From a virus, in the IMG/VR virus record IMGVR_UViG_3300036770_001418, positions 1-36,411 of that record: DNA of 36,411 nucleotides; one strand, given 5' to 3'. Positions 28,588 to 30,582 of the stretch are shown in pieces. A model generated the notes under the pieces. It saw only the letters and a list, made by a program, of their open reading frames with translations, searched no databases and was not told where the DNA came from. The position numbers and the translations under genes are program-made. The stretch's first letter is position 1; the number at the start of each line of letters is the position of its first letter.

Positions 28588-29016
28588 ATGGGAAGAAAAA
28601 GAAATAATATTTACGATGATGCATACGGATTATACTTAAGCGGTCTTTCGTTGCAACAAGTTGCTGAAACTTTGCAAGTAACAAGGCAATGTGTTTATAA
28701 AGCATTTAAAAAAAGAGGTTTTACATTAAGAGGAGTAAACTTTAGACCATTCTTTATTTATGATGATAAAAAATTCACATTAAGGAACAATGGCTATTAC
28801 AGTTTAACAACTAATGAAAGAACATTAATGCATAGATATGTATGGGAGAAAGAAAATGGTAAAATACCAAAAGGGTGGGATATCCATCATAAAAATGAGA
28901 ATAAAGCCGATAATAGAATTGAAAATTTAGAATGTTTGCCAAAATCTGAACATACAAGACATTATTCACCACATAATAATCAATACACAAAAGGTAGAAA
29001 AAAATGCAGCATATAA
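28588..29016 (+). CDS. HNH endonuclease with N-terminal HTH
   Basis: A 142-residue protein. Residues 10-42 (YDDAYGLYLSGLSLQQVAETLQVTRQCVYKAF) form a resolvase-like helix-turn-helix. The C-terminal half carries MHRYVWEKENG (His82) and then DIHHKNENKADNRIENLECL (His100, His101, Asn109), the HNH_3 homing-type pattern. It is likely a mobile homing endonuclease that nicks or cuts intron-less or empty alleles; no intron or intein was seen around it. It overlaps the methyltransferase start by 13 bases. It is markedly more AT-rich than the genes it adjoins, which suggests recent acquisition. Confidence 0.83.
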   Translation: MGRKRNNIYDDAYGLYLSGLSLQQVAETLQVTRQCVYKAFKKRGFTLRGVNFRPFFIYDDKKFTLRNNGYYSLTTNERTLMHRYVWEKENGKIPKGWDIHHKNENKADNRIENLECLPKSEHTRHYSPHNNQYTKGRKKCSI

Positions 29017-30131
29017 GCCTATTTAGTGGTATAGGAGGCTTTGAGTTAGCTGCTGAATGGATGGGATGGCAAAACATTGCATCTTGTGAATTAAACCCAT
29101 TTGGCAGGAAAATCTTAGAGCATTACTGGCCAAAAGCATATCATCACGATGATATCAAAACATTAACAATAGACAAATTAGATTATGAACTACAAAAAAG
29201 ATTCGGAAGCCTCTGGAGGACAAATGACATTGTTCTCACTGGAGGCTTCCCTTAACTATGCCAACCATACTCCTCAGCAGGAAAACGACTTGGCAAAGAA
29301 GATGAGAGACACCTCTGGCCGGAGATGCTTAGAGCGATTCGGGAGATTCAACCACGTTGGGTTGTGGGCGAAAACGTTCTCGGACTTGTTAATTGGAATG
29401 GAGGGTTGGTATTCAACGAGGTGCAAGTTGACCTGGAAGCTGAAGGGTACGAAGTACAACCGTATGTACTTCCAGCTGTATCCGTCAACGCTCCACACAG
29501 AAGAGACAGAGTCTGGTTTGTTGCCCACGCCAAACACTTCCGACTCAAACAACGCGAACAACAAGGACAACCACGATGTAGAGAGAGGGTATTTGAGGGG
29601 GTATGCATCAATGGGACTCCTCCCAACGCCAACCACACAAGAACCGACATCGGAATGCGAGATCAACGAGAATGGTCGCAGAGTGACAACGAACGGGAAG
29701 GACAGCCACTCTATGAACATAGGCAGGATGGCAGCAATGGGGATGCTGCCCACCCCCGCAGCAGTAGATTACAAACAGACAACACTATGCGAAAGCCAGA
29801 GAGACAGATCAACTCTTCCAGGATTAATGGTAAAGATGATGCTGCCGACTCCAACTGCATACGATTGGAAGGACAGAGGGGAGCAAACAAATTGGAAAGG
29901 AGACGATCTGGTATCAACAATGCACAAAGCAACAAGCCAGACTGGCAAAACTTCCCAACTGTCTCCCCAATTTGTTTTGGAGATGATGGGATTTCCGACC
30001 GATTGGACTCTATTACCTTTCCTAAATGGCGAAATGAGTCCATCAAAGCAGGAGGAAATGCCATAGTCCCTCAAGTTGTACTACAAATTTTTAAAACGAT
30101 TGAACAATATGAAAACCTGCAAAACCTGTAA
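29004..30131 (+). pseudogene. C5-cytosine DNA methyltransferase, stop codon inside motif IV
   Basis: One 376-codon frame contains all the usual blocks: motif I ISLFSGIGGFELAAEW (residues 4-19), the acidic HHDDI, motif IV GGFP-CQPYSSAG, WVVGENV with ENV, NAPHRRDRVWFV with the RRxR of motif VIII, and GNAIVPQ near the end. The frame is broken at 29253-29255 by TAA: GGFP is followed by stop, Leu, then CQPYSS. Six bases (TAACTA) seem inserted between the codons for Pro and the catalytic Cys, without shifting frame. The next in-frame ATG (29325) lies after the active Cys, so a reinitiated product would be inactive. The gene is broken unless the stop is read through. A second frame, 29185-30066, is nested within it. 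Confidence 0.85.
29185..30066 (+). CDS. Overlapping frame nested in the methyltransferase gene
   Basis: A 293-residue open frame in the +1 register relative to the methyltransferase. A start at the internal MTLFSLEASL (29224) is also possible. It is not random: DTSGRRCLERFGRF, GLWAKTFSDLLIGMEGWYSTRCKLTWKL, then four LLPTP/MLPTP blocks each followed by a D or E, and a C-terminal LSPQFVLEMMGFPTDW. From memory, proteins with repeated LPTPTAxD and a final L-x-P-x-(F/W)-V-x-x-(L/M)-M-G-(F/W)-P-xx-W occur widely in phages next to or overlapping cytosine methyltransferases. Their function is unknown to me. It stays open across the place where the methyltransferase frame is broken. Confidence 0.6.
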   Translation: MNYKKDSEASGGQMTLFSLEASLNYANHTPQQENDLAKKMRDTSGRRCLERFGRFNHVGLWAKTFSDLLIGMEGWYSTRCKLTWKLKGTKYNRMYFQLYPSTLHTEETESGLLPTPNTSDSNNANNKDNHDVERGYLRGYASMGLLPTPTTQEPTSECEINENGRRVTTNGKDSHSMNIGRMAAMGMLPTPAAVDYKQTTLCESQRDRSTLPGLMVKMMLPTPTAYDWKDRGEQTNWKGDDLVSTMHKATSQTGKTSQLSPQFVLEMMGFPTDWTLLPFLNGEMSPSKQEEMP

Positions 30132-30582
30132 ACAGACAAAGGAACTAACCGAATACCACCGCAATCCCATCAATAAAGATAGGCATGAGGCGAGTTGCAA
30201 AGAGTGTCGAAATAAAAAGAAAAGAGAATCCAAGCTGACTGGTGGCAAGAGACAATGCACAAAGTGCGGAAAGTTTAAGGAACTAAATGAATACCACCTC
30301 AAGGCAGGCGAAAAGAACGGCTACAATAGGCAATGTAAACAATGTGCAGCTTTGTACCAGAAGAATCGGAAGGCAGCTTTAGCTAAGCCAAAAAGACCTC
30401 ATAAGGATGGTCAGAAGGTGTGTGCAGGATGTAACGAGACTAAGGATTATAGTTCATTCCCACGCAGCAGATCATCATCTGATGGGTATGTTCACAAGTG
30501 TAAGGCTTGTTACACGACTACACGCAAGAAGGAGATAGAGATAAATTACGCAGAGTTTTATTATCCGATTGCATTAGATTAG
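30109..30582 (+). CDS. Triple zinc-knuckle protein
   Basis: A 157-residue protein from the ATG at 30109 (MKTCKTCKQTKELTEYH). Three similar modules follow one another: CKTC...CKEC, CTKC...CKQC and CAGC...CKAC. Each has a 'K-x-x-x-(E/S)-(Y/F)' spacer and ends with a CxxC. Such modules accompany HNH endonucleases in phages, but here no HNH active-site pattern follows. It may bind nucleic acid. It overlaps the last 23 bases of the methyltransferase frame. Confidence 0.7.
   Translation: MKTCKTCKQTKELTEYHRNPINKDRHEASCKECRNKKKRESKLTGGKRQCTKCGKFKELNEYHLKAGEKNGYNRQCKQCAALYQKNRKAALAKPKRPHKDGQKVCAGCNETKDYSSFPRSRSSSDGYVHKCKACYTTTRKKEIEINYAEFYYPIALD

Follow-up and report, generated by a model that had tools for sequence, protein, structure and literature searches.

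The locus described here raises the question of how a phage cytosine methyltransferase gene can be expressed when a second reading frame is nested within it and a stop codon stands just ahead of its catalytic cysteine codon. The window, by which we mean the whole stretch of DNA analysed, comprises 36,411 nucleotides of a virus (IMG/VR record IMGVR_UViG_3300036770_001418); the three genes that make up the locus, and the elements within them, all lie on the + strand. The C5 cytosine methyltransferase frame, termed alpha, runs from 29004 to 30131 and contains motifs I–VIII and X, with a TAA codon at 29253–29255 interrupting it. Because of this in-frame TAA, alpha appears as two ORFs in the ORF list. 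The Pfam C5 methyltransferase profile (PF00145) matches on each side of the TAA, and a single tblastn match spans it, indicating that both halves belong to one gene. An earlier note on this DNA had described a single continuous methyltransferase frame; its C5 motifs are indeed present from 29004 onwards, but the frame is split into 29004–29255 and a remainder.

Overlapping the start of alpha by 13 nt is the end of a gene for a homing-type HNH endonuclease (HNH_3; 28588–29016; 142 residues, with an N-terminal HTH; PF13392, E 7e-20). The second frame, termed beta, occupies 29185–30066. Overlapping the alpha tail, at 30076–30582, is the coding region of a small protein built of three zinc-ribbon-like CxxC units (matches to phrog_1035, endonuclease VII, among others), and at another locus, L086, the downstream gene is related to it.

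The in-frame stop, the hairpin that precedes it and the adjoining HNH gene are the most unusual part of the locus, and are absent from the earlier note. Our overall reading, held with good confidence on comparative sequence evidence, is that the locus encodes a two-subunit methyltransferase in overlapping frames, and that a bypass element at the catalytic motif, which would let the ribosome hop over the stop, has spread together with the HNH gene as a cassette.

The nested reading frame and its product

The earlier note had claimed that a +1 frame with LPTP repeats and a GFPxxW ending shares this DNA with the methyltransferase, as true dual coding carried by phages. Such a frame is found at the beta position, encoding 293 residues with four LPTP blocks and GFPTDW near the end; an alternative ATG start candidate lies at 29224. 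In all 80 IMG/VR loci retrieved with the +1 protein, beta lies in the +1 frame of a C5 methyltransferase. It is also present in cultured phages, being annotated in Paenibacillus phage Diva as 'g49 internal gene'.

The earlier note had tied its claim to a depression of synonymous change in the overlap, and this is what we observe. Among 65 non-redundant genes, the conserved 4-fold sites of alpha have a mean codon diversity of 0.62 ahead of the overlap and 0.30 within it, and inside the overlap many alpha sites use a single codon across phages (V138 GTG in 65/65, A156 GCT in 65/65, P316 CCA in 63/63). Diversity rebounds directly past the beta stop codon at 30064–30066 (V353 0.68, P354 0.72). Since the sample of genes used for this comparison had been retrieved via +1 peptides, we drew two further samples with methyltransferase-frame queries alone. 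Taking a +1 frame to be open if it is so over at least 80% of its length, it was open in 72 of the 76 complete genes near the window and in 76/76 from a distant clade. Resampling the synonymous codons of the methyltransferase frame, 300 times for each of the 76 loci of the first sample, gave 0 open +1 frames in 76 × 300 trials, against the 72/76 observed.

That the second frame is a mere shadow of methyltransferase codon bias, and no gene at all, is so improbable that we set it aside: beta does partly overlap the conserved motifs IV–VIII, so that its sequence is partly imposed, but the synonymous collapse is restricted to the overlap, the null yields no open frames, and beta has in-frame homologues in two single-frame enzymes (L170 and Moonbeam gp69, below). 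The codon-level constraint, together with conservation over distant phage clades, argues that both frames are under selection and that 29185–30066 is a real second gene inside the C5 methyltransferase gene, as the earlier note had supposed. Of the two conditions that the earlier note named as refuting this, homologues confined to nested loci and a missing selection signal, neither holds.

What does this second gene encode? Beta is a member of an existing family, phrog_1008, 'DNA methyltransferase' (E 1.9e-30), while sequence searches of Pfam, NCBIfam and PDB yielded no useful match to beta. The earlier view that its product lacks a known role is not supported, as beta has homologues outside nested loci, in frame between motifs VIII and X of single-frame C5 methyltransferases. 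One of these, L170, has WPTP, FPTP and FPSP blocks and, after them, GELNPDWVEFLMNWPMSW in the stretch from motif VIII to motif X, and a profile of 143 beta proteins matches this VIII–X region in hhalign with a probability of 97.9 (E 5.4e-13). The same profile matches Mycobacterium phage Moonbeam gp69, also a single-frame enzyme (hhalign, E 1.6e-9). In both enzymes the match falls where the target-recognition domain and motif IX are located, and alpha has nothing similarly ordered between its motifs VIII and X. AlphaFold predictions of beta alone were of poor quality (pLDDT 57 and 62) and showed no target-recognition fold.

In beta itself, the four LPTP blocks lie at 29518–29946 (residues 112–254), followed at 29953–30018 by a motif-IX-like SQLSPQFVLEMMGFPTDWTLLP, so named from the homology to L170 and Moonbeam gp69. 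A near-identical LPTP block is common to 2078 locus pairs, in 1324 of which the remaining blocks are unrelated; the blocks thus behave as exchangeable cassettes, and we propose that they are target-recognition units. Alpha motif X (GNAIVPQ, 30054–30074) runs beyond the end of beta, from VPQ on. Since the homologues of beta lie in frame between motifs VIII and X, beta is most likely the target-recognition and motif-IX part of the same enzyme, and its match to that part of single-frame enzymes leads us to a two-subunit reading. The locus looks like a putative two-subunit C5 methyltransferase, in which alpha would supply motifs I–VIII and X, and nested beta the LPTP cassettes and motif IX; from these homologies we infer both the assembly of the subunits and the DNA target. 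A modular specificity array coded within the gene of its own catalytic subunit, in another reading frame, would be a clear and widespread case of dual coding, with a function that can be inferred.

The stop codon before the catalytic cysteine

The TAA at 29253–29255 opens a 6-nt insertion. Directly before it stands CCT (29250–29252), the proline codon of GGFP, and after it come CTA (29256–29258) and then TGC (29259–29261), which encodes the catalytic Cys of PCQ. Skipping the 6 nt is required for an intact PCQ in alpha. The beta frame is intact through the insertion. From the comparison of loci described below, we propose CCT as a take-off codon, CTA as a landing codon of the class YYN, and TGC as the codon at which decoding resumes. 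Stops at the identical place, between GGFP and the catalytic Cys and with the frame open afterwards, are found in L005, L010, L011 and L052.

We searched IMG/VR for 6-nt insertions of any sequence flanked by GGFP-like and CQP-like DNA and obtained 84 stretches, 53 of them methyltransferases. The first inserted codon is a stop in 53/53 of these (TAA 34, TGA 13, TAG 6; sense 0), and the second is YYN in 53/53. Further scans for insertions of 3–30 nt, covering GGC/GGG TTC contexts only, brought in seven cases of 9 nt, composed of a stop, one codon and YYN, one of 7 nt (CCA-TGAA-TCA) and, in L208, one of 6 nt behind a CAT take-off codon. Variable-gap matches that seemed to shift by 4–5 nt turned out to be ordinary methyltransferases with GGSCPCQPF, read in another frame, and were rejected. 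An altered genetic code was ruled out because all three stops are used at the site.

Removal of near-duplicates left a hop set of 50 non-redundant phage loci with insertions of 6, 7 or 9 nt. The insertion begins with a stop and ends with a YYN landing codon in all 50, and a proline codon precedes it in 49, the exception being L208. Take-off codons are CCG in 27, CCA in 11, CCT in 11 and CAT in 1, and never CCC, while at the same position the uninterrupted relatives have CCT in 30, CCA in 30, CCC in 23 and CCG in 2. Landing codons have at most one U in their first two positions (50/50), never two wobbles, and frequently differ from the take-off codon of the same locus. YY codons with at most one U are those with which a proline anticodon, NGG, can re-pair, by G–C pairing and at most one G–U pair. 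On a tree of the methyltransferase core, in which many forks are unresolved, at least 14 changes of stop identity and at least 28 changes of landing codon are counted, the former remaining a stop and the latter YY throughout.

Some individual loci deserve mention. The single 7-nt case (L171, 7937–7975) reads CCA TGAA TCA TGC; only a hop restores its frame, and its beta may start at the ATG within it. Two consecutive stops stand ahead of the landing codon in the 9-nt insertions of L198, L193, L201 and L170. L129 has three tandem C5 methyltransferase genes, with a stop insertion in the middle one only.

In samples not selected for the insertion, its frequency was 3/80, 3/76 and 4/80 (∼4%), and GGFP–CQP is uninterrupted in 77/80 and 73/76 relatives. 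Among 85,000 bacterial and archaeal genomes the insertion scan matched 72 stretches, in which the only methyltransferases were L272 and L280, both MAGs; the other matches were set aside as chance. Probing cultured phages with the hop element found none, and all of the hop loci come from metagenomes or MAGs.

Hairpin, HNH gene and the proposed bypass

A hairpin of about −27 kcal/mol occupies 29205–29250, 5' of the stop, and its outer stem (29205–29214/29241–29250) reaches the first base of the take-off codon. The mean folding energy of the 90 nt 5' of the site is −28.6 kcal/mol in hop loci versus −13.6 in others, and a stem of at least 9 bp ending at the take-off codon is present in 41/50 hop loci versus 0/85 others. 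Compared with synonymous resampling, the hairpin has a mean z of −3.3 in hop loci and −0.3 in others. In 21 aligned loci, 98.6% of the stem cells pair, with G-C/C-G and A-U/G-C/U-A exchanges. Fifteen of the cells are changed on both sides, a number reached in 0/500 shuffles, and sliding the stem abolishes the signal. L004, which falls inside the hop group on the tree, has neither insertion nor stem. Column-wise RNAalifold missed the hairpin that single-sequence folding detected, because the distance of the 5' arm varies. Rfam contains no family covering it, and Shine-Dalgarno-like sequences upstream of the site are no stronger in hop loci. Scanning all retrieved loci for the order hairpin, codon, stop and pairable codon returned essentially this site alone.

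The gene directly upstream of alpha is the one HNH_3 match in the whole record. An HNH protein is encoded within 2.5 kb of the site in 31/50 hop loci versus 1/85 controls (Fisher p 2.5e-16, uncorrected for kinship), nearly always 0.6–0.8 kb upstream; in 19/50 hop loci an HNH gene was not detected nearby. The HNH ORF lies in frame inside alpha in about a dozen loci. In L171, L201, L272, L110, L114, L115, L119, L127 and L135 it is in frame with alpha, upstream of the site, and its sole stop is the hop stop. Cylindrospermopsis phage Cr-LKS3 (L451, 1971–3821) was examined because of an HNH match inside its 'DNA methylase', and was rejected as a hop relative, as this methylase is of another class (DPPYG). 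Its HNH is hidden in another frame, like the published ShiLan element.

Programmed bypassing over the alpha stop is very probably the explanation of this arrangement, being the best reading of the sequences compared. The element would consist, in order, of a strong 5' hairpin, a CCN take-off codon, a stop, 0–1 codon, a YYN landing codon and UGC; four nucleotides lie between take-off and landing in one case. Proline ahead of a stop is a known context of slow termination (PMC3985003). Peptidyl-tRNA-Pro would stall at the Pro-stop, detach from CCN, pass over the stop and re-pair with YYN through G-C or one G-U pair, the move being driven by the hairpin re-forming behind the ribosome. Decoding would restart at UGC, restoring GGFP–CQP. 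The insertion probably protects the site from the homing endonuclease encoded by the adjoining HNH gene, which would move together with hairpin and stop as a homing cassette, by analogy with what has been proposed for T4 gene 60 and mobA. We regard it as likely that these loci are a natural family of stop-hops, in which an HNH-carried cassette of hairpin, Pro, stop and YYN sits at the catalytic codons of dual-coding C5 methyltransferases.

There are three other possible explanations for the stop. The first, which we consider unlikely, is a switch made up of hairpin and stop, at which most translation of alpha would end, full-length product being rare and regulated and the HNH link secondary. 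The 19 hop loci without a detected HNH gene are consistent with this, and some termination is to be expected with any bypass; however, the pairing rule for take-off and landing and the HNH association (31/50 vs 1/85) indicate a bypass cassette, and regulation alone would not require YYN.

The second is readthrough, in which the stop would be decoded and alpha would gain two residues (X, then L, P or S) before the catalytic Cys. This too would give full-length alpha, as insertions of 6 and 9 nt preserve the frame. We find it improbable, given that all three stops are in use and that a tolerated insertion of two residues should drift to sense codons, of which there are 0 in 53. Furthermore, the 7-nt insertion of L171 breaks the frame and so could not be read through, several 9-nt insertions hold two tandem stops, and the residue ahead of Cys would often be L or S rather than the conserved P. 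Nor does readthrough account for the YYN rule or for the lack of YY codons with two Ts.

The third takes the insertion for a disabled allele or a dead scar of homing, with selection acting only on beta (or HNH). Unless recoding occurs, a stop ahead of the catalytic Cys amounts to a knock-out, only ∼4% of loci are affected, and the beta frame runs unbroken through the insertion. Against these points, alpha is open across beta in 41/44 hop loci, where constraint on beta alone predicts 4e-4 per locus, and alpha motif X is kept in 41/50, mostly past the beta stop, with its V and P codons synonymously saturated. The hop clades are, moreover, internally diverged, and the covarying hairpin is maintained in them, making us very doubtful that alpha has been inactivated. 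Of the nine hop loci in which motif X is absent from the alpha frame, two are on contigs that end early and several shift frame. Among the latter are the related loci L115 and L119, where alpha and beta change frame jointly at a run of G within their overlap, in opposite directions, perhaps by assembly error, a hypermutable run or transcript slippage.

If bypassing is the true explanation, then its rules could be put to the test by comparing loci, given dozens of variants found in nature, a hairpin that covaries and a gap of only 3–6 nt. The existence of bypass signals would also have a simple explanation, in that the gene survives an insertion that blocks a homing endonuclease. Gene callers that demand one open frame will mis-annotate stop-hop genes as broken.

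Comparison with known systems

Multispecific phage C5 methyltransferases carry exchangeable target-recognition domains, swappable blocks of ∼30–45 aa, between motifs VIII and IX, and in the two-subunit C5 methyltransferase M.EcoHK31I the beta subunit is nested in another frame. The array of the multispecific enzymes is similar to that seen here, but here a protein of its own, encoded in another frame, carries it. In M.EcoHK31I, alpha has motifs I–VIII and X, and beta supplies motif IX (PMC3404938). The division of motifs is similar to that proposed here, motif IX being in the small subunit (PMC3404938); however, the predicted target-recognition domain of M.EcoHK31I is in its alpha, whereas here it is in beta.

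The ShiLan domain is an HNH hidden in a phage methylase gene in overlapping frames (PMC11855218). It resembles the proposed cassette in that an HNH element homes into DNA methylase genes of phages, with overlapping frames. It differs in being a long insertion that holds the HNH gene, and neither a stop-hop element nor an insertion at the catalytic site has been described for it.

T4 gene 60 has long been the standard, and a near-solitary, case of bypassing in phages. Its bypassed gap adjoins the HNH gene mobA (PMC3014915, PMC2988022). Like the element here, it is in a phage gene, with a stop beside the take-off codon, a 5' stem-loop, a landing codon for the same tRNA and an HNH gene near (PMC5009743; PMC3014915). 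The gap is 50 nt with a Gly take-off codon in T4, but 3–6 nt with a Pro take-off codon here. Furthermore, T4 gene 60 is one gene, while the element here occurs in many lineages, in a dual-coding gene and with no nascent-peptide signal identified.

Our literature search found nothing on the element described here; most subscription journals were outside its scope, making the novelty provisional. A 2016 review of recoding knew of no natural hopping over an in-frame stop (PMC5009743), and natural stop-jumping had previously only been suspected. A parallel exists in the synthetic stop-hops of Weiss et al. 1987 (as cited in PMC5009743), which use the codons flanking a stop and in which 9 nt yield one amino acid. 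Those constructs were engineered, whereas the elements described here are natural, and likewise would use the codons that flank a stop.
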